Shown: positions 16,200 through 31,279 of the stretch, piece by piece
How the letters are laid out: every line of letters starts with the position of its first letter
How positions within the stretch are numbered: position 1 is the stretch's first letter
NCBI GenBank assembly: GCA_900016675.1
Contig: LN483072.1
Span: 372,001 to 436,000, forward strand
Length of the DNA: 64,000 bases
Direction: 5' to 3'
Source of the DNA: Arthrobacter saudimassiliensis
Lineage (GTDB): Bacteria; Actinomycetota; Actinomycetes; Actinomycetales; Micrococcaceae
Made by a program: the position numbers and the translations under genes
The notes under the pieces: generated by a model
What the model was told of the DNA's origin: nothing
The model's input: the letters and a program-made list of their open reading frames with translations, nothing else
The model's database searches: none

Positions 16200-17066
16200 C
16201 TAGTCCACGGGATCCAGGACGAAGTCGTAGGTGGTCTGCACCCCGTCGCCCGCCGCGGCCGGCTGGATGTCCAGCATCAGCTCCGGCTTGGTGGCGGTGG
16301 CGATGTCGTCCTCGTTGTGCGGATCGCCGGGGAAGTACAGCTGGGCGGTGAGCAGCTCGTGCCCGGGGGCGGAGACCTTCAGGTGCAGGTGGGCCGGGCG
16401 CCATGCGTGCCACCCCGCGGCGGCGATGAGCTGGCCGCAGGCCCCGTCGGTGGGGATCTGGTAGGGCGCCGGCTGGATGGTGTGGATCTCGAACCTGCCC
16501 TGCTCATCGGCGATGAAGCTGCCGCGCAGGTTCCACTCCGGGATGCCGGGGGCGAACTGCGAGTAGAAACCCTCCTCGTCCGCGTGCCACAGTTCGATCT
16601 TCGCGCCGGCCAGCGGCGCACCGTCGGTGTCCCGGACCTGCCCTTGGAACAGCAGCGGAGTGCCCGCCTCGTCGGGGCGCATTTCGATGGTCGCCGGGCA
16701 CTTCTGCTCCGGGGCGTCGGGAACGTAGTACGGGCCTTCGATGGAGCCCTTGTTGCCCTTGCGGTGGCTGGTGGCGACGTCCTCGACGGAGTGCTCGAGC
16801 CAGACATCAAGGAACAGCGGCCATTCGCCGTCCTCGCCGACCTTGATCAGCCACGCCTTCAGCGCGTTGTACTCGTCATAGCTCACCTTCTCCTCGAGCA
16901 CGATGTCATTGGCCGCCTTGATCAGCCGGCCGGCAAGCATGCTCACCCGCTCCTGCGCGGCTTCGACGTGGGCGAGCTTGCCGGACTGCCGGAACCGGTC
17001 GGTGGCGGCGTTGCCGGACGCCGCGGCGGAGGCGGCTTCAGTCTCGGTGATGGGTTCGGGGGTCAT
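16200..17066 (-). CDS. catA: Catechol 1,2-dioxygenase
   Basis: 288 residues from the ATG at 17066, with AGGAG six bases upstream. It cleaves catechol between the two hydroxyl carbons to cis,cis-muconate. The non-heme Fe(III) ligands are all present: Y168 (EEGFYSQF), Y202 (PAPYQIP), H226 and H228 (WRPAHLHLK). The N-terminal helical dimerisation domain (LAHVEAAQERVSMLAGRLIKAAND) and GPYYVPDAP are typical of intradiol dioxygenases. Catechol comes from benD. catA is downstream of catC on the same strand but separated by 247 bases that contain its own promoter with the shared ben/cat motif, so it can be expressed separately from catRBC. Confidence 0.96.
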   Translation of the reverse strand: MTPEPITETEAASAAASGNAATDRFRQSGKLAHVEAAQERVSMLAGRLIKAANDIVLEEKVSYDEYNALKAWLIKVGEDGEWPLFLDVWLEHSVEDVATSHRKGNKGSIEGPYYVPDAPEQKCPATIEMRPDEAGTPLLFQGQVRDTDGAPLAGAKIELWHADEEGFYSQFAPGIPEWNLRGSFIADEQGRFEIHTIQPAPYQIPTDGACGQLIAAAGWHAWRPAHLHLKVSAPGHELLTAQLYFPGDPHNEDDIATATKPELMLDIQPAAAGDGVQTTYDFVLDPVD

Positions 17067-17163
17067 GTCAGCTCCTGTCGTGATGGCCCGAGGACGCCGG
17101 AGCGGTCCGCGGGTGCGGCGCCGGGCGGCAGTGCCGGACGTCACAGTTTCTGTTCTGGTGGCA

Positions 17164-17216
17164 AATCTATGCGGCTGATTCAGTGGGGAGAAATACACGT
17201 TTGCCGCTCATTGAGA
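17164..17216 (-). promoter_or_regulatory. catA promoter with ben/cat shared operator motif
   Basis: On the minus strand TCTCAAT (17216-17210), 13 bases, GTATTT (17196-17191), 21 bases, then TAGATT (17169-17164) as the -10 box. The spacing is identical to that upstream of catR. The catA ATG is about 98 bases downstream of the -10. A further eight bases upstream ACTAGGAC matches ACTAAGAC in the catR region. Confidence 0.65.
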
Positions 17217-17313
17217 GCCTGGGCGTCCTAGTGCTTCCCCGGTGGTGTGGTGGGCGGCTCTCCGGAGGAAAGCCCGACGTCGGCCGCGGAAAACCGGGCT
17301 CGACGCTGCCGGC

Positions 17314-17592
17314 TCAGCGGATGGCGTTGGGGTGCCGGGCCAGCGGGGTAACCCGGATCCGCATGTACGGGTACATGGGGAAGCCGCTGAGCAGTCCGTG
17401 CAGTTCGTCGTTGGAGGCGACGTCGAATACCGAGTAGTTGGCGTATTCGCCGACCACCCGCCAGATGGAGGCGAGGCGGCCGTCCTCCTGGAGGCTGCGG
17501 GAGTACTTCTGCTCCTGCTCCTGCAGGCTGCGCACCTCCTCCGGAGACAGATGCGGCGGGAACGTGACATCCATGCGGGTCAGGAACAGCAT
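17314..17592 (-). CDS. catC: Muconolactone delta-isomerase
   Basis: 92 residues, the normal length for this small decameric isomerase, which converts muconolactone to 3-oxoadipate enol-lactone. Recognisable elements are MLFLTRMDVTFP at the start, QEQEQKYSRSLQEDGRLASIWRVVGEYANYSVFDV in the middle and PMYPYMRIRVTPLARHP at the end. GGAG lies upstream of the ATG at 17592. It follows catB by 67 bases on the same strand and is probably co-transcribed with it. Confidence 0.95.
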   Translation of the reverse strand: MLFLTRMDVTFPPHLSPEEVRSLQEQEQKYSRSLQEDGRLASIWRVVGEYANYSVFDVASNDELHGLLSGFPMYPYMRIRVTPLARHPNAIR

Positions 17593-17659
17593 GGTCTTCT
17601 CCTTTGAAGGGTCAGCTGGCGGGCGGGTCGGGGCCGGCCGCCGGCGCGGTGAGTCGGGG

Positions 17660-18760
17660 TCAGTCCAGGCGGTAGGCGGCGAGCTTGTCCTCGTCAACGG
17701 CGGCACCGACGCCGGGTACGTCGCGGACGGCGATGGTGCCGTCCACGATGCGCAGGGGGTCGGCGAGCAGATCGTCGGACATGTCGAGGAAGTTGGACAG
17801 TTCCCCCGCGCGCCGGCTGGTGGCCTCGTGGGCAGCGCCGAAGGTGACGGTGGCGAGGGAACCGATCTGGGCGTCGATCTGGTTGCCCATGGTCACGTCG
17901 ACGCCGAGCCCGGTGCACAGCCCGAGGATTTCGGTGGCCTCGGTGAAGCCGGAGCGGGCGGTCTTGATGCAGATGGCGTTGCAGCCGCCGGAGAGCAGCT
18001 CCCGGGATACGTCGCCGGCCGTGGGCACGGACTCGTCGCCGACCACCGGGATGGGCGATTTCTCCACCAGCCGGCGCCGGCTGAGCACTTCCTTGGCGTC
18101 GCAGGGTTCTTCAAGCAGCGTCAGGCCGAGGCCCTCGGTGCGACGCAGCACCTCCAGCGCCTCGTTGGCGGTCCAGCCGCGGTTGGCGTCCAGGTAGATC
18201 TCGACGTCGTCGCCGAGCCCGTCACGCAGGACCCGACAGGCCTCGATATCCAGGGCGAGCGGGCGGCGGCCCACCTTGAGCTTGAAGGTGGTGATTCCGT
18301 ACAGCTCGCCGAAGCGCAGGGCTTCTTCCAGCAGTTCCGCTGCAGGCCGGAAGCCGAGCATGTGGCTGACCCGCATCCGGTCCGTCCAGCCGCCGAGCAG
18401 CCGGTGCACCGGCTCGCCGACGGCCTGGCCGATGGCGTCCCAGACGGCGATATCCAGCGCGCCTTTGGCCACCTGGTTGTTGATGGTCCTGCGCAGCACG
18501 GCGTGGATCCGCTCCCGGTCCATGATGTCCAGACCGAGCAGCTGCGGGGCGAAGACCTGGTCGATGACGGCGGTGATGGACGCCTGCGTCTCGCCGTAGG
18601 TGTACGGGCGGGGCGGGGCGTCGGCGATGCCGACCACGCCGTCGTCGGTGTACACACGGATCAGGACGTGGTCCGCGGTGGCGACCTCGCCGCTGGCGAA
18701 CTTCAGCGGGTGGGTGTACGGGATGGCATAGGGGATCGCTTCGATCCGCTCGATTTTCAC
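17660..18760 (-). CDS. catB: Muconate cycloisomerase
   Basis: 366 residues of the enolase superfamily, turning cis,cis-muconate into muconolactone. The catalytic lysines are in TFKLKVG (K160, K162), the Mg/Mn ligands are D191 (YLDANRGWT), E217 or E218 (LLEEPCD) and D242 (VVGDESV), and the second-side lysine is K266 (ICIKTARSG). The start is a GTG whose last bases form the catR stop codon (GTGA overlap), so catB translation is coupled to that of its regulator. The 3-oxoadipate enol-lactone hydrolase needed next is not encoded in this window. Confidence 0.95.
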   Translation of the reverse strand: MKIERIEAIPYAIPYTHPLKFASGEVATADHVLIRVYTDDGVVGIADAPPRPYTYGETQASITAVIDQVFAPQLLGLDIMDRERIHAVLRRTINNQVAKGALDIAVWDAIGQAVGEPVHRLLGGWTDRMRVSHMLGFRPAAELLEEALRFGELYGITTFKLKVGRRPLALDIEACRVLRDGLGDDVEIYLDANRGWTANEALEVLRRTEGLGLTLLEEPCDAKEVLSRRRLVEKSPIPVVGDESVPTAGDVSRELLSGGCNAICIKTARSGFTEATEILGLCTGLGVDVTMGNQIDAQIGSLATVTFGAAHEATSRRAGELSNFLDMSDDLLADPLRIVDGTIAVRDVPGVGAAVDEDKLAAYRLD

Positions 18761-19656
18761 GGGGTGGTTCCTTCTGACGGGGTCAGGGTCTGGGCGTCGA
18801 AAAGGGAGAGGAAGTTCGCGATCAGCGGGCGGGCATCGCCTTTGCGGGAGGCCAGGGCGAGGTCGACTTCGGGGGCGTCTGTCAGGGCGCGGAAGACGAT
18901 GCCCTGCAGCCCGAAGGTGCTGCGCGGGGTGGGCACCAGTGCGATGCCCATTCCGGCTGCCACGAAGGAGAGCAGTGTGGAGGTTTCGCGGGCCTCCTGG
19001 ACGATGTCGGGACGGAAACCGGCGGATCTGGCGGCGTCGAGGAAAATGCCGCTGACCGCGGATTCGGCGGGATAGGAGATGAAGGGCTGGCCGGCGAGAT
19101 CGGCCAGCCGCAGTTCATCACGGATCGCGAGCGGGTGCTGCTCGGGCAGGGCAAGGACCAGCTCGTCCTGGCCCAGGCGCAGCAGGTCCAGTGCCTCCGA
19201 GCGCACCGGCGGGCGCAGCAGGGCCACATCGATGCGGTTCTCCTCCAGCGCCCGTTCCATCTGCGGGGTGAGCATTTCGCCGTGGACGTTCAGCCGCAGC
19301 CCGGGCATCCGGGTCCGGGCCGCTTCGACGATCCGGGGCATCAGCCGGTACATGGTGGATCCGGCCACCCCGATCCGGACCACGCCGCTGGCGCCCTGCC
19401 CGACCAGCTGCACGTCCTGGGCCACCTGGTCGAGGTCGGCGAGGATGCCGCGGGCACGGTCCAGGAGCAGCTCGCCGGCGGGTGTGAGTTCCACCTTGCG
19501 GGTGGTGCGGACCAGCAGCTGGGTCTTCAGCTGTTCCTCGAGCTGCTTGATCTGCTGGGAGAGCGGAGGTTGCGCCATGTGCAGGCGCTCGGCCGCGCGG
19601 CCGAAGTGCTTTTCCTCCGCCACGGCGACGAAATACCGCAGGTGCCGTGTTTCCAT
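18757..19656 (-). CDS. catR: LysR-family regulator of catechol degradation
   Basis: 299 residues. The first 60 form the LysR winged helix-turn-helix (METRHLRYFVAVAEEKHFGRAAERLHMAQPPLSQQIKQLEEQL); the rest is the two-lobed inducer-binding domain, which in CatR/CatM relatives binds cis,cis-muconate. In most relatives catR is divergent from its target, but here it is the first gene of the catRBC transcription unit and overlaps catB by four bases, so autoregulation would also set catB expression. A copy of the shared ben/cat motif lies in its own promoter, and CatR is the best candidate to bind all three copies. Confidence 0.9.
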   Translation of the reverse strand: METRHLRYFVAVAEEKHFGRAAERLHMAQPPLSQQIKQLEEQLKTQLLVRTTRKVELTPAGELLLDRARGILADLDQVAQDVQLVGQGASGVVRIGVAGSTMYRLMPRIVEAARTRMPGLRLNVHGEMLTPQMERALEENRIDVALLRPPVRSEALDLLRLGQDELVLALPEQHPLAIRDELRLADLAGQPFISYPAESAVSGIFLDAARSAGFRPDIVQEARETSTLLSFVAAGMGIALVPTPRSTFGLQGIVFRALTDAPEVDLALASRKGDARPLIANFLSLFDAQTLTPSEGTTP

Positions 19657-20514: not shown

Positions 20515-21579
20515 ATGAATTTGGACTGGTTGGAGTGGATTCTGCCCGCCCTGCTGGCGGTGGTGCTGGCCGTCGGCGGCACGGCCGCGGGCTGGGCCGG
20601 GTGCCTGCTGTGGCAGCGGCGGCGGGAACTCAGCGCCCTGCGCGAGCTGGTCACCCAGCTGCACCTGAAACGGGCGCTGGCGGCCGACGGGCCCGGCACG
20701 GTGGACCCGGTGCACGATCCGGTGCGCTGCCGCTCCGCGGTCGCCGACGTCCGCGGCCAGGTGCGCGAGGCGCTGGCCGAGCTGCGGCCCGGATCGGTGA
20801 AGGTCGCGGCCGTGCTGGTGGACATGGAGGCCGCCTGCGCCCGGTACCTGCAGGAGGTGTCCGCCGCACCGGGCAGCTACGCGGCCCGGCTGCCGGGGCT
20901 GCGCCTGGAGCTGCACGCCGGGCTGCGCCGACTGTGCAGCCTGCGCGAGGACCTGGAGTACCTGGCGCCGGGCCAGCGCGGCGATGCCCGCGCCGCCGAA
21001 CGCGAGGCGTCCGCGGCCCGGGTCGCGGAACAGCTCGCCCGACGGCGCGCTGCGGCCGACGCCGGCACCGGCCGCACTGGCCGGGCCGACAGTGCGGCGG
21101 ACCCGGGCAGCACCCGGATGGAACCCGTTGCGGCAGCGTCCGGCGCCGGCAAGGTTGCCCGGACCGGGGAGATGACCAGCCATACCCGCCCCGGGCAGGG
21201 GAAGGTCCCGGGGCAGCCGCGGCACCGTGCGCCGGTTGCCCCCGGCCCCGCCCGCCGCGGTTTGATCGGGCGGCGGCGCCGGGAGGACCGCGCCACAGCC
21301 GACGACGCCGCCCGCTGGCTGCCGCAGACCCCGGTGTCCGCGGCGACCGCGGCCCACACCGGAGCCGAGGGAAAGGTGAAGCAGCCGACGGCGGCGGCTC
21401 CCGCCGTCGTCGTGCCCGCCGCTCCGGTGACCGTGGCGGCGCCTGCCGTCACGGAAACGGCCCTGATTCCGCCGCCCGTGCCGGTGGCGGCCGTACCGGC
21501 GCCGTCCCCGCCGGCCGTGCGCGGCGGCAAGAGCAGCATCAACAAGGCCGCGCGGAACCGGCGCCGGCAAAAGGTCTAG
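20515..21579 (+). CDS. Membrane-anchored Ala/Pro-rich protein, unknown function
   Basis: 354 residues from the ATG at 20515, with GGAAGGG upstream. One N-terminal membrane helix (about residues 8-30, WILPALLAVVLAVGGTAAGW) is followed by basic WQRRRE, placing the rest in the cytoplasm. Residues about 35-160 are helical and partly coiled, and include a single CRSAVADVRGQVREALAELRPGSVKVAAVLVDMEAACARYL segment. The last 200 residues are low-complexity (Ala, Pro, Arg, Gly) and end in a basic KAARNRRRQKV tail that might bind nucleic acid or acidic lipids. I do not recognise the family. Confidence 0.65.
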   Translation: MNLDWLEWILPALLAVVLAVGGTAAGWAGCLLWQRRRELSALRELVTQLHLKRALAADGPGTVDPVHDPVRCRSAVADVRGQVREALAELRPGSVKVAAVLVDMEAACARYLQEVSAAPGSYAARLPGLRLELHAGLRRLCSLREDLEYLAPGQRGDARAAEREASAARVAEQLARRRAAADAGTGRTGRADSAADPGSTRMEPVAAASGAGKVARTGEMTSHTRPGQGKVPGQPRHRAPVAPGPARRGLIGRRRREDRATADDAARWLPQTPVSAATAAHTGAEGKVKQPTAAAPAVVVPAAPVTVAAPAVTETALIPPPVPVAAVPAPSPPAVRGGKSSINKAARNRRRQKV

Positions 21580-21643
21580 GCGGTACCGTGCTGCCCCGCT
21601 CCCCCGAAGGCAGGAGAATGCGGGGCGGCGCGGCAGCCGGCGG

Positions 21644-22084
21644 CTACCGGGTCCAGCCGATGATGAACGCGACCGTGAAGAAGAGCAGCAGCGACAGCAG
21701 CGGGGCGACGACGGCGCCGACGATCGCGCTGAGGCCGGGACGGTGGCCGGCCGGGCGCTGCACCGCGACGATGCCCAGGATGAACGCCGTGATCCCCAGG
21801 GCGCCCCAGAGCAGCTGGCTGCCCAGCAGCCCGTAGGCGAGGCCGGTGAGCGGGTTGGGATTCCCCGGGTTGCTGGACAGGTCCCAGGTGCTGACGATGG
21901 TGCCGGCGACGGCGGAGGCCAGCAGGGACCCGGCGGCGGCGGTGATCATCAGGCGCAGGCCCGCTCTTGCGGCCCGGCCCGGCTCCGTCGGGGCCGCCGG
22001 CGCGGGCGGCTGGGCAGGCTGGCCGGCTGTGTGCCAGGCGGGCTGGTGGGGCGACGGCGGATTCGCGGGCGGCGGCATGCTCAT
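21644..22084 (-). CDS. Small integral membrane protein, unknown function
   Basis: 146 residues. A proline-rich cytoplasmic N-terminus (about 40 residues) precedes three membrane segments: LMITAAAGSLLASAVAGTIV, LLWGALGITAFILGIVAVQR and LSAIVGAVVAPLLSLLLFFTVAFIIG. The layout resembles actinobacterial DUF4190-like proteins. It lies 59 bases downstream of the Pel-like operon on the same strand and might be co-transcribed, but nothing links it to polysaccharide export. Confidence 0.6.
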   Translation of the reverse strand: MSMPPPANPPSPHQPAWHTAGQPAQPPAPAAPTEPGRAARAGLRLMITAAAGSLLASAVAGTIVSTWDLSSNPGNPNPLTGLAYGLLGSQLLWGALGITAFILGIVAVQRPAGHRPGLSAIVGAVVAPLLSLLLFFTVAFIIGWTR

Positions 22085-22143
22085 CGGATCAGCGTAGGAA
22101 AAGGCCTTCGCTGTTCCGAGTTATGACGTGCCTGCTCGGCCGC

Positions 22144-23220
22144 TCAGCCCGCCCGGCGGAAGATCACACCCCGCTGCGCCGGCAGCACCACCGACGACGG
22201 TGCCGGCCGGCCCGCGGCGTCGACCATGCCCGCCGGGACACGCACCTTCCGCCGGCGCCGGCCGTCCCGGTTGAAGTTCACGGCCGCGAAGCCGGCGTCG
22301 AACTCCCGCCACCAGGTGTGGCCGCGGCCCTGCGGGGCGGCGCGTGGGCCACCCAGCTGCCAGTCCAGTTCGGGGGCGTGCTGGAGGCGGCTGTAGTCGT
22401 CGTGCGCGGTCGCCGAGTAGGCTCCCCGGCCGCCGCCGAAGATCCAGAACGCGGACAGCCCGTAGGTGACGTTCGGGTGCCGGTCGTCGCCGTCGGTCGG
22501 CACCCGCAGGATGGACAGCCCCGGCCCGGCGGCCTGCGGCAGCTGCGCCTCCGCGGTGACGGGGTCGAACAGGTGCACCGGGCTGTAGCCGAGCCAGACC
22601 TCCTCGAACCCGCCGCCGTACGCGGCGTGCGCGTTCCACCGGCCGGGTTCGCGGCGGGATTCGGCGATGTTCGGGACCAGGAGCTTCCCGACGGCGTTCA
22701 GCGCGGCCCCGGCGGCGTGCACCAGCTCGCCCACGGCGCTGCGGATCCCTGCCATGTCGGCGGCACCGGTGATGGGCAGGCGCAGGCCGTAGTAGTCGTC
22801 GAACACGTCGTTGTCCGCCATCACCCCGTCGAAGGGCGAGCCGCGCAGCTCCGCGGTCACGTTCTCCACCCAGCGCCGCCGGTATCCCGGATCCCAGACC
22901 CGCATCTGCCAGTGCCCCGGATACCGCTCCCACTCGATCCGGGTGCCGTCCAGGCGGGTGGCGAACCACCCGCCGTCGTCCGCCTCCGCCTCCGCAAACG
23001 AGACCCCTGAACTGTAGACCGGGCCCGGTTCGTAGCTGCGGGTGGAGGACAGGCACTTGTAGCAGAGGACCGTCATGTCCGGGCGCAGCCGCTTCAGCTC
23101 GCGGGCGGCGTCGGTCTCCCAGGGCTGCAGGATCGCCGCCCGGTAGTGCGCGGCCGCGAAGTCGAGCTCGCCCGGTTGCAGCGGCCCGCCGTAGCGGATC
23201 CAGGCGCCGACGCCGGTCAC
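22144..23220 (-). CDS. GHL15-like putative glycoside hydrolase of the Pel-like operon
   Basis: 358 residues from a GTG that shares bases with the pelF stop codon (GTGA at 23220-23217). The sequence suggests a TIM-barrel hydrolase: WIRYGGPLQPGELDFAAAHYRAAILQPWE at the start, VLCYKCLSSTR, WQMRVWDPGYRRRWVENVTAEL, FDGVMADNDVFDDYYGL (acidic residues likely in the active site) and a late beta domain with GFAAVNFNRDG. This pattern fits the putative GHL15/GH114-like group. No signal peptide is visible. In classical Pel systems a hydrolase domain of PelA trims the polymer; this protein may play a comparable role, though from position and fold type only. Confidence 0.6.
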   Translation of the reverse strand: MTGVGAWIRYGGPLQPGELDFAAAHYRAAILQPWETDAARELKRLRPDMTVLCYKCLSSTRSYEPGPVYSSGVSFAEAEADDGGWFATRLDGTRIEWERYPGHWQMRVWDPGYRRRWVENVTAELRGSPFDGVMADNDVFDDYYGLRLPITGAADMAGIRSAVGELVHAAGAALNAVGKLLVPNIAESRREPGRWNAHAAYGGGFEEVWLGYSPVHLFDPVTAEAQLPQAAGPGLSILRVPTDGDDRHPNVTYGLSAFWIFGGGRGAYSATAHDDYSRLQHAPELDWQLGGPRAAPQGRGHTWWREFDAGFAAVNFNRDGRRRRKVRVPAGMVDAAGRPAPSSVVLPAQRGVIFRRAG

Positions 23221-24914
23221 TGCACCTCCGGCAGCAGGTAGTCCAGTTCGGTGGTGGAGAGGTTGCGCAGCTCGGAGATGTCGCCGACGGTGCGGTAGAT
23301 CTCGTTGTAGGAGGACATGATTTCGTGCATCTGGAAGAACTCCTCCACCCGGGTGCGCGCGTTGTCGGCGTACTCGGCGTAGCGGTCCAGGTCGCCGATG
23401 ACGGCGCGGATCCGCTCGGCCATCTGCTGCACGTCGCCGGCGGCCACCAGCTCGCCGCAGGGGCCCACGGTCCGCCCGTCCGCCGTCGGCAGCGGATCGC
23501 CGACCAGCTGGCGCATGCCGCCGACGTCGGTGCCCACGGTCGGGATGCCGGCGGCCATCGCCTCGAGCACCACGATCGGCTGGCCCTCGTTGTAGCTGGG
23601 CAGCACCAGCAGGTCGAACTCGTCCAGCCGCTCCCGGACGTGGACGGTGCCGTGCACGGTCACGTGGTCCTGCAGGCCCAGGCTCTCGATCTTCGCCAGG
23701 CACGCCTCGTAGTAGTCCGGCACGTGCTCGGTGGGGCCGAGCACGTCCAGGTGCACGTTGGGGAAGCCGTGCCGGCGCAGCAGGTCGAGGCTGGAGAGCA
23801 GGTCCAGCAGGCCCTTGATCGGCACCACCCGGGCGATGTACGCGAGGTGCCAGGTGTGGTTGTCGCCCTGCTTGGCCAGCCGGGTCCGGGCGGCGAGCCG
23901 GGCCCGGTACTTCTCCTCGAACTCGGCGATGACCATGCCGTTGGGCACCACCACGGACTTGTCGATGTCGGTGCCCAGCCGGGCGGCCTCGGTGATCGCC
24001 GACGGGTAGAGGTAGGTGATCAGCGCCGCGCTCGGGTAGCAGAAGTGGCCCATTTCGATCCACCAGGCCATCCAGGCCCGCTGCTCGGCGGTGACGTCGT
24101 CGAAGGTGCGGTAGTCCTCGGAGGTGATGGACAGCGCCATGTTGCGCTCCAGCAGGGTATTCACCGTGTCGCGGACGTACAGGTTGTGTTCGGTGAGCAG
24201 GAACGAGGTGCCGTGGTCGCGGGCGGCGGCGGCGCCGAGCAGCGAGGCGTAGCCGGTGGTGTGCGCGTGGTAGACGCGGGCCCGGGGCATGGTTTCGCCC
24301 AGTACGGCGTAGGCGAGGGAGAAGAAGTTGCGCAGTGTCCAGAACGAGTCGGCCAGGGACAGGTTCAGCTGCGGCATCCGCTCCCCCAGTGCCTGCATGA
24401 ACTCGCGGGTGCCCAGCAGCGCCCAGAGCGGGTAGCGGCGGGTGCGGGCATTGAACCCCTCGTCGATCAGCTGCCAGAGCGGGTCCACGTCGCGGTCCTC
24501 GGACAGTGCGTAGAGCGCGTCGAACAGCCGGTGCGCCAGTGCGGTGCGTTCGGCCGGGCCCAGCCCCAGGTCCTTGGCGGTGGCGGCCATGAAGTCGTGC
24601 CGGTGTTCCTGTAGGGACAGGTAGACGGTGCGCACCCACAGCACGTTCTCCGGCATTCCGTACAGGTCCTCGCTGGGCGCGTCCGAGTCCCAGGCGATGT
24701 GGATGATGCCGTAGCTCAGGTCCGGGTTGTGGGTGACGATGTCGTGCACCACTGCCGACACGCCGCCCTTGAGGTAGGGGTAGGTGGACTCCATGACAAT
24801 GGCGACGTCCACGTCGGGGTAGTCGGCCTGCGCGGCCTGCACGGCGGCGGGCACGACGGCGCGGTCCTGGCTGAGGGCGGACCGGCGGGCCTTGGTCTTT
24901 TTGGTTCCGTACAT
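23217..24914 (-). CDS. pelF: PelF-type GT4 glycosyltransferase
   Basis: 565 residues. The opening VDVAIVMESTYPYLKGGVSAVVHDIV is the hallmark of PelF, the cytoplasmic UDP-sugar glycosyltransferase of Pel-type polysaccharides. The C-terminal GT-B lobe shows VPNGMVIAEFE, VPIKGLLDLLSSLDLL, VHGTVHVRERLDEFDLLVLPSYNEGQPIVVLEAMAAGIPTVGTDVGGMRQLV, including the acidic ExxxxxE region that binds the nucleotide sugar. GAAGGA precedes the ATG. It lies between the PelG-like gene (89 bases upstream) and the hydrolase gene (overlapping), forming a three-gene operon. PelD and PelE equivalents are not present in the window. Confidence 0.9.
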   Translation of the reverse strand: MYGTKKTKARRSALSQDRAVVPAAVQAAQADYPDVDVAIVMESTYPYLKGGVSAVVHDIVTHNPDLSYGIIHIAWDSDAPSEDLYGMPENVLWVRTVYLSLQEHRHDFMAATAKDLGLGPAERTALAHRLFDALYALSEDRDVDPLWQLIDEGFNARTRRYPLWALLGTREFMQALGERMPQLNLSLADSFWTLRNFFSLAYAVLGETMPRARVYHAHTTGYASLLGAAAARDHGTSFLLTEHNLYVRDTVNTLLERNMALSITSEDYRTFDDVTAEQRAWMAWWIEMGHFCYPSAALITYLYPSAITEAARLGTDIDKSVVVPNGMVIAEFEEKYRARLAARTRLAKQGDNHTWHLAYIARVVPIKGLLDLLSSLDLLRRHGFPNVHLDVLGPTEHVPDYYEACLAKIESLGLQDHVTVHGTVHVRERLDEFDLLVLPSYNEGQPIVVLEAMAAGIPTVGTDVGGMRQLVGDPLPTADGRTVGPCGELVAAGDVQQMAERIRAVIGDLDRYAEYADNARTRVEEFFQMHEIMSSYNEIYRTVGDISELRNLSTTELDYLLPEVQ

Positions 24915-25003
24915 GGCGGTGTCCTTCTGCGGAGGAGGTCAGCGGGATGGCGGGGGGCCGACGGCGCCGGTGCGGCCGACGTCGGCGGGTTCCGGGAAGC
25001 GGG

Positions 25004-26455
25004 CTACCAGGACGTGGCGTGGCGCCAGAACAGGGTGTATTCCGGCTGGGTCCAGTGCCGCTTGTAGAGCACCCAGGCGGCGGCGACCAGGGCCAGGTCC
25101 GCGGCGGCGAGCGCCGCGTAGGCCAGCGCCGCTGCGGCGGTGCCGGCGCCGATGAGCAGGAACGCCGCCGCGCAGAGCATCAGGTGGACCCCGCCGAGGA
25201 TCTGCGGCAGGAGCTTCTCGCCGATGTAATCCAGTTCGTAGCTGAGCAGGGTCAGGACCATGAAGGCCCAGGAGGCCACGCCCACGGCGGCGGCCAGCAG
25301 CACCTGGGCCGGCTGCAGGCCTTCCATCAGTAGGCAGACGGCGAGGGTGAGCAGCATGCCGGCCGCTCCGGTGGTGAGGATCGCGCGGTCCGCGGTGCGG
25401 CTGAGCGTCCTGGAGCGTTGGGCCAGCAGGGTCAGCGGCTCCTGGGCGATGGCCTGGTGCAGGGAGGCGACGGCGCGGTCCACCTGCGGGGCCAGGTTCA
25501 CAAAGTAGTAGTTGTAGGCCAGGACGGCCGGCAGCATGGCGAGGAAGACCACCACCACCTGGAAGTCGCCGTCGGTGACCAGGAAGAGGACGAACTTGTC
25601 GGCCCAGAGCACGGCGCCCAGCAGCAGGCCGCGCAGCAGGTCCGCGCTGAAGTGACGCGGGTCCAGTCCGCGGAGCCGGACGGCGGCCAGGCCGCGGCCC
25701 ATGGCGGCGATCTGGGTGAGCGCGCCGAGCAGCGGCGGCAGCCACCAGAGGGTGGGGCCCAGGAACAGGGCGGCGGCGTAGGCGGCCCAGGCGGCGGCCC
25801 AGAGGCCGCGCCGGTTGGCGACGTTCGCCATGATGAGGGCCTGGACGAACAGCAGGTGCAGGGCGACCAGCGCGGCGTAGGTGCCCAGGGCGGTCAGGGA
25901 CCAGCCGGTGGCCAGCCACAGCGGGACCGCGAAGACCACAACCAGCGGCAGGGCGAAGACGAACATCGCCGGCCAGGTGCTGCAGAACCGGCGGACAATG
26001 GCAGCCATGTGCCGCTCGGCCATCAGGTCGCCGATGGCGCGGTAGGCCGGCAGGCAGGCCGCCTGCGCCAGCCACGGCACGGTGATGGAGGAGGCGAGCA
26101 CCACGTGGGTCAGCTGCACTCCCCCGACCTGCACGGCGGCCATCGCGGGGCTGACCAGCGGATAGACCAGGTTCAGCAGGATCACGGGCGATAGGTAGAG
26201 CAGCAGCCCGGCGCCGGGCCGGGAGGCGTCTTCGGCCCGCGCGCCCCGGCTGCCGGCGCCCGGGCGGACGTTCCGGAGCAGGGCGATCATGGCCAGCAGC
26301 GCGCCGGCGGCGAGCAGGGCCAGAGACCATCCGGCGGGCAGCAGGGTAGTGGCGCCTGCCAGGGGCACCAGGGCCGTGAGGACGAGTGCGGCGAGGATCA
26401 GCAGGGTCCGCCGCCGGGTGAAGGAGTCGTGGAAAAGAGACCGGATCGATGTCAT
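25004..26455 (-). CDS. PelG-like polytopic membrane protein (polysaccharide flippase/exporter)
   Basis: About 483 residues from the ATG at 26455, with GGGGGGA upstream. About 12 hydrophobic segments are visible. The central part AVLWADKFVLFLVTDGDFQVVVVFLAMLPAVLAYNYYFVNLAPQVDRAV resembles the conserved W-x-DKF...F-x-A-x-L-x-x-I-P region of PelG, the inner-membrane MOP-superfamily exporter that works with PelF. Another family trait is the long soluble piece LHQAIAQEPLTLLAQRSRTLSRTADRAI before the last group of helices. The start region has a basic N-terminus (RRRTLLIL) before the first helix. Assignment as PelG rests on this motif and on operon position. Confidence 0.7.
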   Translation of the reverse strand: MTSIRSLFHDSFTRRRTLLILAALVLTALVPLAGATTLLPAGWSLALLAAGALLAMIALLRNVRPGAGSRGARAEDASRPGAGLLLYLSPVILLNLVYPLVSPAMAAVQVGGVQLTHVVLASSITVPWLAQAACLPAYRAIGDLMAERHMAAIVRRFCSTWPAMFVFALPLVVVFAVPLWLATGWSLTALGTYAALVALHLLFVQALIMANVANRRGLWAAAWAAYAAALFLGPTLWWLPPLLGALTQIAAMGRGLAAVRLRGLDPRHFSADLLRGLLLGAVLWADKFVLFLVTDGDFQVVVVFLAMLPAVLAYNYYFVNLAPQVDRAVASLHQAIAQEPLTLLAQRSRTLSRTADRAILTTGAAGMLLTLAVCLLMEGLQPAQVLLAAAVGVASWAFMVLTLLSYELDYIGEKLLPQILGGVHLMLCAAAFLLIGAGTAAAALAYAALAAADLALVAAAWVLYKRHWTQPEYTLFWRHATSW

Positions 26456-26809
26456 GGTTCCCCCCGGGGCTCCGCCGCGCATGAATGTGGCTGGCGGCCG
26501 GAGCCCTAGATGTGAGACGTAAAGATGGCTGGGAGTGCCCCTGGCTGGGGGTCGCAGCTTGTCTTTGCCCGGGAGGTAGGCCCTACGGGAAAGTGCGTCG
26601 CCGCTACTCAGCAACGAGCACCGGCATCACCATAGGTCGGGCGTGGAGGCCGGCGCCCAAGTAGTTCCTACGCATTTTTTGCGGGCAGCTACTGGTCCTA
26701 TGCCTGCTACCTGTTGCCAGCTTCGGAGGGGTATGGGACGCTCCGCTGCCGCCTCCACCGGCTGGAGGCAGTACGGGAGCTGGCGGGTGCGGGGGGGGTG
26801 GAACGTGCT
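26456..26809. other. 354-base non-coding region upstream of the Pel-like operon
   Basis: No gene is supported here; the open frames lack ribosome sites and coding character. It must hold the promoter of the minus-strand Pel-like operon and the 3' end of the PAP2-like gene transcript. Visible features are a run of eight G at about 26791 and a T6 run at about 26677 after the small GTAG-TTC-CTAC hairpin. I found no convincing riboswitch. Confidence 0.5.
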
Positions 26810-27421
26810 CTAGGGAAGCAGCAGGGCCGTGGCAAAGGCCAGGCATCCGGCGATGTGGCCGGCCAGGACCTGGGTGGGTGTGTGGTCGCCGATCTTGACC
26901 CGCGACCAGCCCGTGGCGCTGGCCAGCAGCAGGGCGAGTCCTGCACCGACCGCCGGGATCGGGGCCAGCAGGGCCAAACCGACGTAGGCGGCGACGGCGG
27001 AATGAACCGACAGCTTCCAGACCAGGTTCGCGGCCAGACACAGCATCATGCCGATGAAGACGCCGCCGATCTCGCCGAACATGGCGGCCGGGGCGTCCAG
27101 CAGGATGAGGACCAGCGCGCCGATGCCCATCGACACTGCGGATGCGGCCAAGATGGGAGCCCGCTGGGTCCGCACACCCACGTGGTGGTCCGTCACCGAA
27201 CCGCGCTGCTTCAGCCAGAGAATTCCGGCAAAGGGCAGCCCCACGGTGAAGACCGCCGCCATCACACCCTGCAGCCACGTCACCCCCGGGGTGAGCAGGG
27301 GCTGCAGCAGCAGCAGGATCCCTACGAGCACAGTCGGTGCGGAGATTTCGGTGACGACGCGTGCCAGGCGGAGGGACACGGCGGAAGGGCGGGATGCGGC
27401 GAGCTGCAGGGGTTGAGGCAT
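26810..27421 (-). CDS. PAP2-like integral membrane protein
   Basis: 203 residues with six or so membrane segments. Pieces in the PAP2 phosphatase order are TDHHVGVRTQRAP, LSVHSAVAAYVG (central SxH-like motif) and SRVKIGDHTPTQVLAGHIAG (third motif with the catalytic-type histidine). PAP2 enzymes hydrolyse lipid phosphates such as phosphatidic acid or undecaprenyl pyrophosphate on the outer face of the membrane. The first motif is degenerate (no clear KxxxxxxRP), so activity is not certain. It lies on the same strand as the polysaccharide operon but is separated by 354 bases. Confidence 0.7.
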   Translation of the reverse strand: MPQPLQLAASRPSAVSLRLARVVTEISAPTVLVGILLLLQPLLTPGVTWLQGVMAAVFTVGLPFAGILWLKQRGSVTDHHVGVRTQRAPILAASAVSMGIGALVLILLDAPAAMFGEIGGVFIGMMLCLAANLVWKLSVHSAVAAYVGLALLAPIPAVGAGLALLLASATGWSRVKIGDHTPTQVLAGHIAGCLAFATALLLP

Positions 27422-27543
27422 CAGATGATTTTACGGGGACCGCGGCGTGGGCTTGGCCCTCGGCGCATCCGCTTCGGGCAGCTCCCGTCGTCACGGTAGA
27501 GGGCTTGGGTGCGGTTCGCCGGTCCCATGTCTGCCAGCGGCTT

Positions 27544-28047
27544 CTAGAACTCGCCCCGAATGGATTCGTCCTCCGGCCAGGGGAAGCACTCCGAACCGGA
27601 CGCAATGCGGATTGTCTGGGGCTCAACCCCGGCACCGATGATGTAATTTTCGGCGACGTCCGGCGAGAGCAGCTGGACTTCGAAGTGTCCGGCCGGGGCG
27701 GGGTCACGCACCTTGAGATCGAACCGGTTGTCCCGGTACTTCTCCTCGAGGGCCCGGACCACCGGGTCGGGCTCCGCTCCCGCTGTCAAAGTGACAGTGG
27801 TTACACCGTTCCAATTAACCGTGGAACCGCCGCAGTCGATCAGCATGCCGGTCGGCATCTGGGCGACGTCGGCCACTTCGTCTCGGGGAATCGAATCAGC
27901 GACTTCCAGTTCCATGGCCTGTGTTCGGGCCTTTGCTTCCTGCCACGTCAACTCGTCCGCTGCGGACGCCTCAGGCTCAGCACTGGCACACCCAACAAGA
28001 CCCAACAGCAACACCAAACCTGCTGCAACTCCTCGGGCTTGAGTCAT
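27544..28047 (-). CDS. Tandem lipoprotein paralogue 7 (putative immunity protein)
   Basis: 167 residues, the last of seven tandem paralogues. A lipoprotein signal (lipobox LGLVGC, cysteine at about residue 20) predicts attachment to the outer face of the membrane. The mature part follows the family plan: TWQEAKARTQAMELE helix, a cysteine in LIDCGG, VNWNGVTTVTL, EEKYRDNRF, PAGHFEVQL and the end IASGSECFPWPEDESIRGEF. The two cysteines may form a disulphide. Its last 120 residues are almost identical to paralogue 1 at the opposite end of the array, while the signal regions differ, which points to gene conversion. It is 41 bases from paralogue 6. Confidence 0.8.
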   Translation of the reverse strand: MTQARGVAAGLVLLLGLVGCASAEPEASAADELTWQEAKARTQAMELEVADSIPRDEVADVAQMPTGMLIDCGGSTVNWNGVTTVTLTAGAEPDPVVRALEEKYRDNRFDLKVRDPAPAGHFEVQLLSPDVAENYIIGAGVEPQTIRIASGSECFPWPEDESIRGEF

Positions 28048-28088
28048 CCATTCACCCCCATCCCACCGCCTCCCGATGGCAACGGACC

Positions 28089-28598
28089 CTAGAACTTTCC
28101 TCCCATGTACTCGCCCTCAAGCCAAGGAAAGCACGCAGAACCAGAGGCAATACGAATGGTATAGGGCTCCTCGGCCCCTCGCTTGATGATGTACATCTCC
28201 GCATCGTCAGGAGAGCGCAGCTGGACTTCGTAGTGTCCCGCCGGAGCAGGATCACGCACCTTAATGGCGAATCGGCTGTCCTGATACTTCTCCTCCAGCT
28301 CGCGGACAAGAGGCTCCGGATCAGTCCCCTCAATCAAGGTAACGGTGGTCGCGCCATGCCAGTTGACAGAAGAGTCACTGCATCTGATCAGCAAACCCGT
28401 CAATTCCTGATCGACATTGGCCAGCTTATCCTGCGGGAGCGATTCGGCGATTTCCAGTTCCATGGCCTGCGTTCGGGCTTTTGCTTCCTGCCACGTCAGC
28501 TCGTCGCCGTCTCCGGCTGCCTTGGACGATTCCTTGGCGCAGCCGACGAGACCCAACACGAGCACCAGGCCAGTGACAGCCGCTCGCCTCCGATTCAT
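28089..28598 (-). CDS. Tandem lipoprotein paralogue 6 (putative immunity protein)
   Basis: 169 residues from the ATG at 28598, with GAGGTGG upstream. The signal peptide MNRRRAAVTGLVLVLGLVGC ends in a lipobox cysteine. It shares with paralogue 2 the pieces LIRCSDSSVNWHG, DDAEMYIIKRGAEEPYTI and CFPWLEGEYMGGKF, and the 25 bases before both start codons are nearly the same, so these two are recent copies of one another although three other paralogues lie between them. A leucine replaces the proline found in CFPWP of the other six copies. Confidence 0.8.
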   Translation of the reverse strand: MNRRRAAVTGLVLVLGLVGCAKESSKAAGDGDELTWQEAKARTQAMELEIAESLPQDKLANVDQELTGLLIRCSDSSVNWHGATTVTLIEGTDPEPLVRELEEKYQDSRFAIKVRDPAPAGHYEVQLRSPDDAEMYIIKRGAEEPYTIRIASGSACFPWLEGEYMGGKF

Positions 28599-28623
28599 TC
28601 CGCCACCTCGAAGACCAAGGCTT

Positions 28624-29127
28624 CTAGAACTCGCCGCCGATATACTCGCCCTCCGGCCAGGGGAAGCACTCAGAACCAGAGGCGATCCGGATCGTATTCG
28701 GATCGAACCCCTCACCGATGAGATAGCTTTCGCCGCCGTCCGGCGAGCGTAGCTGGATATCGTAGTGGCCTGCCGGCGCGGGATCACGCACCTCGATATC
28801 GAACCGGCTGTCCCGGTATTTCTCCTCGAGCGCACGCACCAGCGGATCGGGCTCGGTTCCAGCAGGCAACGTGACAGTGGTTGCCCCGTTCCAATTGACC
28901 CTGGAATCATCGCACCTGATCAGCATGCCGGTCGGCATCTGGGCAACCTCGACCACTTGGTCCGGTGGAAGCGATTCAACGATTTCCAGCTCCATAGCCT
29001 GCGTGCGGGCCTTTGCTTCCTGCCAGGTCAGCTCGACGCTTCCGGCCGCCTCAGACGAGTTGTCAGCGCAACCCACAAGGCTGAGACACAGACTCACGCA
29101 AGCGACAGCTGCTCGCCACCGAATCAC
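28624..29127 (-). CDS. Tandem lipoprotein paralogue 5 (putative immunity protein)
   Basis: About 167 residues from a GTG at 29127, with GAGAGG seven bases upstream; another in-frame GTG at 29148 has no good site. The signal peptide is IRWRAAVACVSLCLSLVGC. It is the most different signal region of the array. The mature part has LIRCDDSRVNWNG, EEKYRDSRFDIEVRD, and ends YLIGEGFDPNTIRIASGSECFPW, nearly the same C-terminal block as paralogue 3, with the EYIGGEF end. This mixture of blocks suggests recombination between copies. Confidence 0.8.
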   Translation of the reverse strand: MIRWRAAVACVSLCLSLVGCADNSSEAAGSVELTWQEAKARTQAMELEIVESLPPDQVVEVAQMPTGMLIRCDDSRVNWNGATTVTLPAGTEPDPLVRALEEKYRDSRFDIEVRDPAPAGHYDIQLRSPDGGESYLIGEGFDPNTIRIASGSECFPWPEGEYIGGEF

Positions 29128-29154
29128 CCCGCCGCCTCTCGATGGCACAGGATT

Positions 29155-29655
29155 CTAGAACTTTCCGCCCATGTACTCGCCCTCGGGCCAGTGGAAGCAG
29201 TCAGAGCCGGACGCAACTCGAATCGTATGGGGTTCCAGTCCTTCCGCGACCAGATAGATTTCGGCGCTGTTCGGAGAGACCAACCCGACTTCATAATGTC
29301 CAGCCGGAGCTGTTCGTGTTTCGATGTCGAACCTGCTTCCTTGGTACTTCGTTTCTAGCTCCCTCACCAGAGGCTCCGGCTCAACCCCCTCATTCAGAGT
29401 GACCGTGGTTGCCCCTTTCCAGTTCACGGATTCAGGACCGCAGCCCATGAGAACACCGGTTGACCCCTGATCGATGGCGGCCACTTTATCTTTGGGGAAG
29501 GAATTGGCAATCTCCAGCTCCACGGCCTGCGCACGGGCCTTCGCTTCCTGCCAGGGCAGCCCGTCGACTGCGGCTGCCTCGGACGAATCCTCGGCGCAGC
29601 CGGTAAGGCCCAGCAGCAGCACCAGGGGCACTGCAGCGGATCGTACTCGAGTCAT
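29155..29655 (-). CDS. Tandem lipoprotein paralogue 4 (putative immunity protein)
   Basis: About 166 residues from the ATG at 29655, with GAGAGG seven bases upstream (an earlier start five codons upstream would place the ribosome site inside the gene). The lipobox is LGLTGC. The signal region and leader DNA are nearly identical to paralogue 3, but the mature part is the most divergent of the seven: DKVAAIDQGSTGVLMGCGPESVNWKG, a deleted residue in ETRTAPAGHYEVGL, and CFHWPEGEYMGGKF with H in place of P. The divergent mature part would fit an immunity protein matching a different toxin variant. Confidence 0.8.
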   Translation of the reverse strand: MTRVRSAAVPLVLLLGLTGCAEDSSEAAAVDGLPWQEAKARAQAVELEIANSFPKDKVAAIDQGSTGVLMGCGPESVNWKGATTVTLNEGVEPEPLVRELETKYQGSRFDIETRTAPAGHYEVGLVSPNSAEIYLVAEGLEPHTIRVASGSDCFHWPEGEYMGGKF

Positions 29656-29682
29656 CTCGTTGCCTCTCAAAGACCTGAGATT

Positions 29683-30183
29683 CTAGAACTTTCCGCCCAT
29701 ATATTCGCCCTCAGGCCAGGGGAAGCACTCAGAACCGGATGCTATACGAACCGTGTAGGGATCAAACCCTTCGCCGACGATGTAGATTTCGGCGGTCTCA
29801 GGAGAGCGCAGCTGGACTTCGTAGTGTCCCGCCGGCGCGGGATCCCGTACCTTAATCTCGAATCGGCTGTCCTGATACTTCGCCTCCAACGCCCGAACGA
29901 GAGGCTCCGGATCCGTCCCTTCACTCAAAGCCACAGTGGTCGCCCCATGCCAGTTGACCGAAGAGCCACCGCACTCAATCAGAACGCCGTCCGGCATTTG
30001 CTCGATCTCGGCCACTTGGTCCTGCGGAAGCGAATCAGCGATTTCCAGTTCCATGGCCTGTGTACGGGCCTTCGCTTCCTGCCAGGGCAGCCCGTCGACT
30101 GCGGCTGCCTCGGACGGATCCTCGGCGCAGCCGGTAAGGCCCAGCAGCAGCACCAGGGGCACTGCAGATCGTACTCGAGTCAT
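29683..30183 (-). CDS. Tandem lipoprotein paralogue 3 (putative immunity protein)
   Basis: About 166 residues from the ATG at 30183, with the same GAGAGG ribosome site as paralogue 4. The signal peptide MTRVRSAVPLVLLLGLTGC is one alanine shorter than in that copy. The mature part is a mosaic: DQVAEIEQMPDGVLIECGGSSVNWHG in the middle resembles paralogue 1 for the MPxGxLI piece and paralogue 2 for VNWHG and TDPEPLVR, and its end EGFDPYTVRIASGSECFPW resembles paralogue 5. This supports past gene conversion. Confidence 0.8.
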   Translation of the reverse strand: MTRVRSAVPLVLLLGLTGCAEDPSEAAAVDGLPWQEAKARTQAMELEIADSLPQDQVAEIEQMPDGVLIECGGSSVNWHGATTVALSEGTDPEPLVRALEAKYQDSRFEIKVRDPAPAGHYEVQLRSPETAEIYIVGEGFDPYTVRIASGSECFPWPEGEYMGGKF

Positions 30184-30210
30184 CTCGTTGCCTCTCAAAG
30201 ACCTGAGATT

Positions 30211-30717
30211 CTAGAACTTTCCGCCCATATATTCGCCCTCAGGCCACGGAAAGCACGCAGAACCAGAGGCAATACGAATGGTATAGGGTTCCTCGGCCCC
30301 TCGCTTGATGATGTACATCTCCGCATCGTCAGGAGATCGCAGCTGAACTTCGTAGTGTCCCGCCGGGGCAGGGTCACGCACTTTAATGTCGAAGCGGCTG
30401 TTTTCGTATTTCGCCTCCAGGTCTCGGACAAGAGGCTCCGGATCAGTTCCCTCAGTTAAGGTAACGGTGGTCGCGCCATGCCAGTTGACAGAAGTGTCGC
30501 TGCACCTGATCAGCAGACCAGTCAATGCCTGATCGACACTGGCCAGCTTATCCTGCGGTAGCGATTCGGCAATTTCCAATTCCATGGCCTGCGCACGGGC
30601 CTTCGCTTCCTGCCACGTCAGCACGTCGCCTCCGGCTGCCTCGGACGAATCCTCGGCGCAGCCGACGAGGCCGAACACAAGGACCAGGCCAGTGGCAGCC
30701 GCTCGCCTGCGATTCAT
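30211..30717 (-). CDS. Tandem lipoprotein paralogue 2 (putative immunity protein)
   Basis: 168 residues with signal peptide MNRRRAAATGLVLVFGLVGC. It is the close twin of paralogue 6: both contain LIRCSD, VNWHGATTVTL, EGTDPEPLVR and the unusual YIIKRGAEEPYTI insert-like block. The leader sequence (GAGGTGG, then the TTCTAGAA box around the stop codon of the preceding gene) is also shared. It starts 25 bases after paralogue 1. Confidence 0.8.
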   Translation of the reverse strand: MNRRRAAATGLVLVFGLVGCAEDSSEAAGGDVLTWQEAKARAQAMELEIAESLPQDKLASVDQALTGLLIRCSDTSVNWHGATTVTLTEGTDPEPLVRDLEAKYENSRFDIKVRDPAPAGHYEVQLRSPDDAEMYIIKRGAEEPYTIRIASGSACFPWPEGEYMGGKF

Positions 30718-30742
30718 TCCGCCACCTCAAAGACCAAGGCTT

Positions 30743-31279
30743 CTAGAATTCGCCCCGAATGGATTCGTCCTCCGGCCAGGGGAAGCACTCCGAACCGGAC
30801 GCAATTCGGATTGTCTGGGGCTCAACCCCGGCACCGATGATGTAGTTTTCGGCGGCGTCCGGCGAGCGCAGCTGGACTTCGAAGTGTCCTGCCGGGGCGG
30901 GGTCACGCACCTTGAGTTCGAACCGGCTCTCCCGGTACTTCTCCTCGAGGGCCCGGACCACCGGGTCGGGCTCCGTTCCAGCTGTCAAAGTGACAGTGGT
31001 GACCCCGTTCCAATTAACCGTGGACCCGCCGCAGTCGATCAGCATGCCGGTCGGCATCTGGGCGACGTCGGCTACCTGGTCCTGAGGAATTGATTCAGCG
31101 ATTTCCAGCTCCATGGCCTGTGTGCGCGCCTTGGCTTCCTGCCAGGTCAACTCCGTCATCATGGACGGTTCCCCCTCCTTAGTGGTCGTTTGTGTCGGCG
31201 CCTGTGACGAGTCCGTTGCGCATCCAGCGAGGCCGAGCAGCAGGACCAAACCTGCGGCGGCACTTCGTGCTCGAATCAT
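30743..31279 (-). CDS. Tandem lipoprotein paralogue 1 (putative cognate immunity protein)
   Basis: 178 residues, the first lipoprotein and the one directly coupled to the putative effector gene: its ATG overlaps the effector stop codon (ATGA at 31279-31276). The signal peptide is IRARSAAAGLVLLLGLAGC. After the lipid-modified cysteine it has an extra linker rich in Thr, Gln and Lys (TDSSQAPTQTTTKEGEPSMM) not found in the others. The rest is nearly identical to paralogue 7. Toxin-immunity pairs are usually made from coupled genes in this order, so this copy is the best candidate for the cognate inhibitor. Confidence 0.82.
   Translation of the reverse strand: MIRARSAAAGLVLLLGLAGCATDSSQAPTQTTTKEGEPSMMTELTWQEAKARTQAMELEIAESIPQDQVADVAQMPTGMLIDCGGSTVNWNGVTTVTLTAGTEPDPVVRALEEKYRESRFELKVRDPAPAGHFEVQLRSPDAAENYIIGAGVEPQTIRIASGSECFPWPEDESIRGEF

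Follow-up and report, generated by a model that had tools for sequence, protein, structure and literature searches.

Among described systems, the Gram-positive pelDEADAFG operon (Bacillus cereus type; PMC7112168), the agd3-containing operons of actinobacteria (PMC7229062) and the GH168 endo-fucanases (PMC12210190) come closest to the locus studied here, a trio of genes encoding a membrane exporter, a PelF-family glycosyltransferase and a GHL15-like glycoside hydrolase in Arthrobacter saudimassiliensis. The trio lies in a stretch of 64,000 nucleotides (contig LN483072.1, positions 372,001 to 436,000), which we call the window. The genes galE and DUF4832 are known Pel accessories (PMC7112168), DUF4832 belonging to streptococcal Pel loci, and PMC12345266 describes PelA as an enzyme of the periplasm. 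The agd3-containing operons comprise a cytoplasmic transferase, a multi-spanning protein and GH114, some with Spherulin-4 (PMC7229062).

Like pelDEADAFG, the trio combines a PelF-family transferase with a multi-spanning exporter, and in some loci it is accompanied by galE, hydrolase and DUF4832 accessories. Unlike that operon, it was found with no PelD, PelE or PelA deacetylase, its exporter is missed by the PelG model, and its hydrolase is GH168-like, lacks a signal peptide and is mostly linked to PelF by a gene overlap. The gene order is exporter-PelF, in contrast to the PelF-PelG order of four canonical loci. With the Agd3/CE18 operons, hereafter of Streptomyces type, the trio shares a cytoplasmic DUF3492 transferase and a multi-spanning membrane protein, and several of those loci also encode a small hydrolase in which no signal peptide is visible by eye. 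However, the trio PelF lies across a fully supported branch from theirs, the membrane proteins have no detectable similarity, and the hydrolases of the Streptomyces type are GH114 and Spherulin4 proteins. The original prediction placed three linked genes here, with a GTGA overlap between the last two, and this is what we find, consecutively and in the order exporter, PelF, GHL15:

25004 to 26455, minus strand: gene for a membrane exporter of predicted MOP fold, at best a remote PelG relative (ATG start, 483 amino acids)
23217 to 24914, minus strand: gene for the PelF-family GT4 glycosyltransferase (ATG start, 565 amino acids; NF038011, with DUF3492 and GT4 domains)
22144 to 23220, minus strand: gene for the GHL15/GH168-like glycoside hydrolase, no signal peptide (GTG start, 358 amino acids; PF14885)
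23217 to 23220, minus strand: start/stop overlap of PelF and GHL15, 4 nucleotides, GTGA
22813 to 22815, minus strand: codon of GHL15 Asp136, predicted nucleophile, aligned with Asp167 of MeGH168
22600 to 22602, minus strand: codon of GHL15 Glu207, predicted acid/base, aligned with Glu237 of MeGH168
23562 to 23588, minus strand: EX7E motif of PelF, E443 to E451

Linkage of the trio and its PelF transferase

The original prediction had proposed a search for the trio in other actinobacteria. Our GHL15 model found 15 matching genomes, spanning three families, among 396 genomes of the order; since 14 of these hold all three genes together, the linkage is far beyond chance. The fifteenth genome (G030) carries a remnant. 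An exporter search of 148 related genomes agrees: ten of its 11 matches have the complete trio, and the eleventh is the same decayed copy (L029, on G030:C11), with fragments of all three genes and an internal stop. Genes flanking the trio vary from genus to genus. The trio occurs in five of 25 same-genus genomes among the matches listed, and its PelF clade is rare in the class (3 of 394 genomes at E ≤ 1e-80). Outside the order, GHL15 was found in 5 of 296 genomes of a wider phylum sample; in the stretches fetched around these five, some of them short, there is no trio exporter beside GHL15, and the only genes matching PelF nearby, weakly, are generic GT4 genes. The window's own genome has one member over the cut-off for each of the PelF and GHL15 families.

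A set of 20 trio loci was used for the tree, overlap and selection analyses. Four loci were left out for set size (L025, L031, L034, L080), L029 as decayed, L037 for an exporter split in gene calling, and L032, L033 and L075 as presumed duplicates of L022, L021 and L036. PelF and GHL15 overlap by 4 nucleotides in 15 of these loci and by 14 in one; in another they are separated by a 92-base gap, and in three they lie on opposite strands. In all 12 pairwise comparisons made, the ratio of non-synonymous to synonymous substitution rates (dN/dS) falls at about 0.07-0.30. Pairwise distances computed for each of the three proteins are correlated with one another (Spearman 0.87, 0.92 and 0.94, on data that are not independent). 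From these comparisons we read the trio as a functional module maintained in few genomes. Named relatives found with the exporter comprise seven records from Arthrobacter and another under the title Vibrio cholerae 35D; the latter (L037) has an Arthrobacter-like trio locus and is probably a case of contamination or mislabelling.

The transferase proves to be the clear PelF that was predicted, matching NCBIfam NF038011 with 249.9 bits (cut-off 100) and showing DUF3492 and GT4 domains by Pfam. In a tree of 36 proteins (20 trio, eight canonical and eight Streptomyces-type rows), the trio rows form a single group with 100/100 support. A 100/100 branch separates them and the eight canonical rows from the eight Streptomyces-type rows. 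The branch leading to the trio group is long, at 2.94 changes per column, and the tree tool warns of long branches meeting. Residues R362, K367, E443 and E451 are invariant in 36 of 36 rows; we take them to be the GT4 donor-site and EX7E residues. GT4 transferases are retaining enzymes. As judged from its sequence, the trio transferase belongs to the PelF family and has its catalytic residues intact.

Ten stretches were also fetched around other PelF genes, one of which (L120) yielded no called genes. The Streptomyces-type loci among our material (L114-L119, L121-L123) carry a DUF3492 transferase, several with GH114, Spherulin4 and a large secreted-looking protein; this last has no Pfam match, and its CE18-like label rests on the description in PMC7229062.

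The exporter and the hydrolase

The exporter had been called PelG-like, and this claim holds in part. Its predicted model (mean predicted local distance difference test, pLDDT, 73.3; predicted template modelling score, pTM, 0.75) matches WzxE (Z 22.3, root-mean-square deviation (rmsd) 4.0, 362 aligned) and MATE1 (Z 21.7, rmsd 4.1, 375 aligned) in a tie and also resembles MurJ of the MOP superfamily, so a MOP-flippase fold is predicted. The Pfam model PelG (PF16933) matches neither the window exporter at E ≤ 1 nor a six-frame translation of the window's genome at E ≤ 10. Neither PelG nor any transporter model matches the 15 members of the exporter alignment at E ≤ 10, where hits to six unrelated families are at chance level. 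With protein, alignment members and genome all devoid of a match, the Pfam route to PelG was dropped.

Profile-profile comparison gave a faint signal. A first run against five genuine PelG rows returned nothing (probability 0.1). A later one, between 15 trio exporters and nine genuine PelG proteins, found a weak match, collinear over 193 columns and running from a W-x-D-K motif common to both to a C-terminal E-Y-x-x-F motif; it scores 40.0 (P 5e-4) one way and 27.2 (P 0.026) the other way. Control scores were 18.5 and 18.8 for trio exporters against 20 MurJ proteins, 16.7 and 17.9 for trio exporters against the Streptomyces-type membrane protein, and 23.4 and 24.9 for genuine PelG against MurJ. 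A tblastn search for Wzx among plasmids gave no match, which left MurJ, entered as untrimmed open frames, as the sole MOP control. This weak match, stronger than that to MurJ, is what links the exporter to PelG, and by sequence the exporter would be a remote, unproven relative of PelG at best. A common origin with the Streptomyces-type membrane protein was also considered and received no signal in the profile comparisons. At L020 (8026-9717, genome G059), unlike at the other loci, the open frame of the exporter continues well into the beginning of pelF, an overlap of about 180 bases that may be a real extension or a sequencing slip.

The GHL15-like assignment of the hydrolase was borne out by Pfam PF14885 (164.5 bits, cut-off 27). 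The structure prediction that had been proposed for it (mean pLDDT 74.4, pTM 0.71) matches GH168 structures with Z 20.4-22.3, the best being 9f9v_B (rmsd 3.8, 306 aligned), and the next rows reach at most 17.7. A GH191 galactosaminidase was rejected as a candidate, because GH191 (Z 16.5) ties with alpha-amylases and other TIM barrels whereas GH168 stands clear. A profile built from the GHL15 proteins of 14 trios, with L076 as the fifteenth row, also finds solved GH168 structures, 9f9v at E 3.7e-6 and the Muricauda enzyme 9nhf at E 6.6e-6; a single GHL15 sequence finds none. Asp136 and Glu207, invariant in 15 of 15 rows, fall on chain positions 170 and 240 of the profile alignment (counted by hand). 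An offset of 3, from a chain length of 378 against a last modelled residue of 375, turns these into Asp167 and Glu237 of MeGH168, its predicted nucleophile and acid/base, respectively (PMC12210190). Judged from model and profile, GHL15 resembles the GH168 retaining endo-alpha-glycosidases and keeps both catalytic carboxylates. Like the endo-fucanases MeGH168 and Fun168A, it would join a TIM barrel and a C-terminal beta domain with a catalytic Asp/Glu pair; unlike them, it has no signal peptide and is encoded within a biosynthetic operon, and the structural alignments show 11-19% identity.

The lack of a signal peptide had been noted in the original prediction, and it extends to all 20 trio proteins, none of which has a hydrophobic N-terminus (best 12-residue mean 0.41-1.18). 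By comparison, four proteins picked as secreted-looking, two of them GHL15 of other lineages, reach 2.39-2.87. In-frame starts up to 450 bases upstream do not make the trio N-termini hydrophobic; the row of L078 starts inside its frame, and the ATG 15 bases upstream leaves the result unchanged, while the L035 sequence was cut at a run of N. The trio GHL15 therefore seems, on these predictions, to stay inside the cell. The suggestion that it replaces the PelA hydrolase is doubtful, since PelA is described as periplasmic (PMC12345266), no trio GHL15 has a hydrophobic N-terminus, and no deacetylase was found. An intracellular hydrolase may recur beyond the trio, because the Spherulin4 proteins of L115 and L118 also start, by eye, without an obvious signal peptide. 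A second GHL15 gene of genome G976 (L076, 9415-10548), 40% identical to that of the window, lies amid glycosyltransferase genes with no PelF.

Pel components and neighbouring genes

No PelA, PelD or PelE had been seen at the locus, and broader searches agree. Seventeen tblastn probes for PelD, PelE, PelA, CE18-like, GH114, Spherulin4 and Streptomyces-type membrane proteins gave no match in 24 trio loci and the window; in 15 known loci they gave 68 matches (self-hits included), and 16 of the 17 found something beyond themselves. Each of the four PelD probes finds another PelD in known loci, as three of the four PelE probes find another PelE. The PelE search was made near the locus, and the PelE names, like that of PelD in L055, were assigned by position; we know of no family model for PelE. 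In nine Streptomyces-type loci the counts, self-hits included, were eight for CE18-like, seven for Spherulin4 and five for GH114 probes.

Homologues elsewhere in the genome had been named as evidence that would speak against the original prediction. The PelD model PF16963 is over the cut-off in none of 10 trio genomes (one match of 11.9 bits lies below), in a set that held no positive genome. The genome-wide deacetylase search covered the DUF2194 type (PF09960), the PelA deacetylase family of the two genuine Pel loci in the actinobacterial phylum used here; it is likewise over the cut-off in none of the 10 (one match of 12.0 bits lies below), with clear matches in two of four control genomes containing genuine PelG. 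The simplified apparatus that had been suggested thus takes the form of a minimal PelF, exporter and hydrolase operon with no PelA, PelD or PelE nearby.

The trio can be plasmid-borne. Among 72,556 plasmid records searched with PelF (E ≤ 1e-30), the only match above 60% identity is pTC2 of Paenarthrobacter aurescens TC1, typed as conjugative. Its gene order is exporter-PelF-GHL15-galE, GHL15 overlapping PelF by 4 nucleotides and galE by 5, with a divergent galU upstream of the trio. A close galE also adjoins the trio in L026, and in L078 a more distant epimerase (25% identity) lies further off. A DUF4832-type protein adjoins the trio in L129, L026 and L078. Such a secreted-looking neighbour could take on the task outside the cell. 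In Streptococcus intermedius the purified DUF4832 protein, SIR_1591, has hydrolase activity and disrupts aggregates of Pel (PMC12345266). In the window neither a galE nor a DUF4832 neighbour was found beside the trio.

Another secreted-looking protein stands beside the trio in six Arthrobacter-type loci, L020, L030, L031, L034, L036 and L037, and is absent there in A. agilis UMCV2 (L035). In Arthrobacter ruber MDB1-42 it occupies 14387-15841 of L036 (484 amino acids) and is conserved in the five other loci. Searches of solved structures (E ≤ 1) and of Pfam gave no match for it; a lipoprotein match in NCBIfam is below the cut-off.

Elsewhere in the window, a drop in G+C from about 0.70 to 0.57-0.63, at about 28000-32000 and 40000-64000, suggests that these stretches are acquired DNA. 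Seven tandem paralogous lipoprotein genes of about 170 amino acids each, with 58-90% mutual identity, occupy 27544-31279 on the minus strand; two of them, scanned with Pfam, gave no match, and they are possibly an expanding surface or immunity-type array. At 16200-19656, minus strand, an intradiol dioxygenase, a muconate cycloisomerase-like enzyme and a LysR regulator in a row form a catechol-type degradation operon. No Rfam match and no tRNA gene was found in the window, and the region 21500-27600 has no promoter-like and two terminator-like sites, about as many as in shuffles. A defence role for the trio was dropped, as none of its three proteins matched in PADLOC.

A possible Pel-type module and its alternatives

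On balance we lean, if slightly, towards the trio being a Pel-type synthase module without PelD, PelE and PelA that makes an alpha-linked, galacto-configured polymer and trims it inside the cell. A synthase for an alpha-linked polymer is suggested because a PelF-type transferase, a MOP-fold exporter and a GH168-like glycosidase are tightly linked; a galacto-configured sugar and a Pel-like product, because galE adjoins the trio on pTC2 and in L026 and DUF4832 genes are neighbours; and trimming or clearing of nascent chains, because the hydrolase seems to stay inside the cell. Cytoplasmic PelF would build the chain, most likely from UDP-N-acetylgalactosamine (UDP-GalNAc) or UDP-galactose (UDP-Gal), a PelG-derived MOP-fold protein would pass it across the membrane, and cytoplasmic GHL15, as a GH168-like endo-alpha-glycosidase, would trim, release or clear nascent chains. 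Such a module would be self-contained, occasionally plasmid-borne, and free of both PelD/PelE control by cyclic di-GMP (c-di-GMP) and deacetylation by PelA. We infer here the identity of the sugar, its polymerisation, the direction of export, the coupled synthesis of PelF and GHL15, and the cytosolic trimming. A bolder form, which we put forward tentatively, would make this the smallest Pel-type synthase: two proteins would polymerise and export without PelD, PelE or c-di-GMP, under the control of an obligatory cytosolic endo-glycosidase co-translated with the synthase, as a make-and-trim plug-in cassette able to travel on a conjugative plasmid.

Several points weigh against a PelD/E/A-less polymer synthase. 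PelD and PelE are needed in P. aeruginosa, B. cereus and S. intermedius (PMC7112168, PMC12345266), although the former paper asks whether PelD is dispensable in streptococci. The link between exporter and PelG is a single weak profile match, with a probability of 30% in one direction and 1.9% in the other. A single-profile search with nine PelG rows fails to separate the trio exporters from reversed decoys (E = 66, the floor, for the window exporter; 0.04 and 0.13 for the best trio exporters; 1.5 for the best decoy), and a global alignment of trio exporters with PelG failed. An adjacent close galE is present in just two of 27 sequences searched (26 fetched loci, among them a decayed one and a duplicate, plus the window), and deletion of the S. 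intermedius DUF4832 gene has no phenotype (PMC12345266). The described substrates of GH168 are sulfated fucans. In the hydrolase structure search, GH191 galactosaminidases do not rise above unrelated TIM barrels. Lastly, unless it is regulated, a hydrolase in the cytosol that attacks what its partner makes would be wasteful.

Could the trio instead make a lipid-linked or short glycan? PelF would then add one or a few sugars to a carrier, the MOP protein would act as a Wzx-type flippase for a wall glycan, and GHL15 would edit or transfer the glycan. The best structural matches of the exporter, WzxE and MATE1, and its weak relation to PelG point this way, as does GHL15 outside the order, found near generic GT4 and, by eye, Wzx-like and sulfotransferase-like genes. 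We nevertheless think this unlikely: in the neighbour clusters, genes for other transferases, polymerases or carrier priming do not recur next to the trio from genus to genus, PelF groups with the transferases of Pel loci, and the exporter profile match favours PelG over MurJ. It is more improbable still that GHL15 acts extracellularly, leaving the cell without a classical signal, and substitutes for the PelA hydrolase in freeing polymer from the surface. An endo-alpha-1,4-polygalactosaminidase gene does occur in three of four annotated canonical loci, and some GHL15 proteins from beyond the order (L157, L158) show a signal-like N-terminus; but the trio N-termini are uniformly non-hydrophobic, upstream starts included, and some loci have a separate secreted-looking protein. 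The patchy spread within the genus and the decayed copy in G030 would fit a remnant of a fuller Pel operon, decaying or repurposed after the loss of PelD, PelE and PelA. The low dN/dS, the intact trio in 14 of 15 genomes over three families, and the single deep PelF group, which suggests a long life without the other parts, make such a remnant very improbable.

Among the literature titles listed on PelF/PelG in Gram-positive bacteria, on GHL15, on DUF3492/PelF in Actinobacteria and on PelF with Arthrobacter, none is on the trio, and none of those listed for related genera has PelF. A compact unit of three genes, the trio occurs in some soil actinobacteria and probably makes and exports a polymer like Pel. 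Which parts are needed to polymerise and export, if a conserved module does without PelD and PelE? A PelD/E/A-less Pel-type synthase, if that is what the trio is, would point to a function for one GHL15 branch and to an uncharacterised polysaccharide in Arthrobacter and its relatives.

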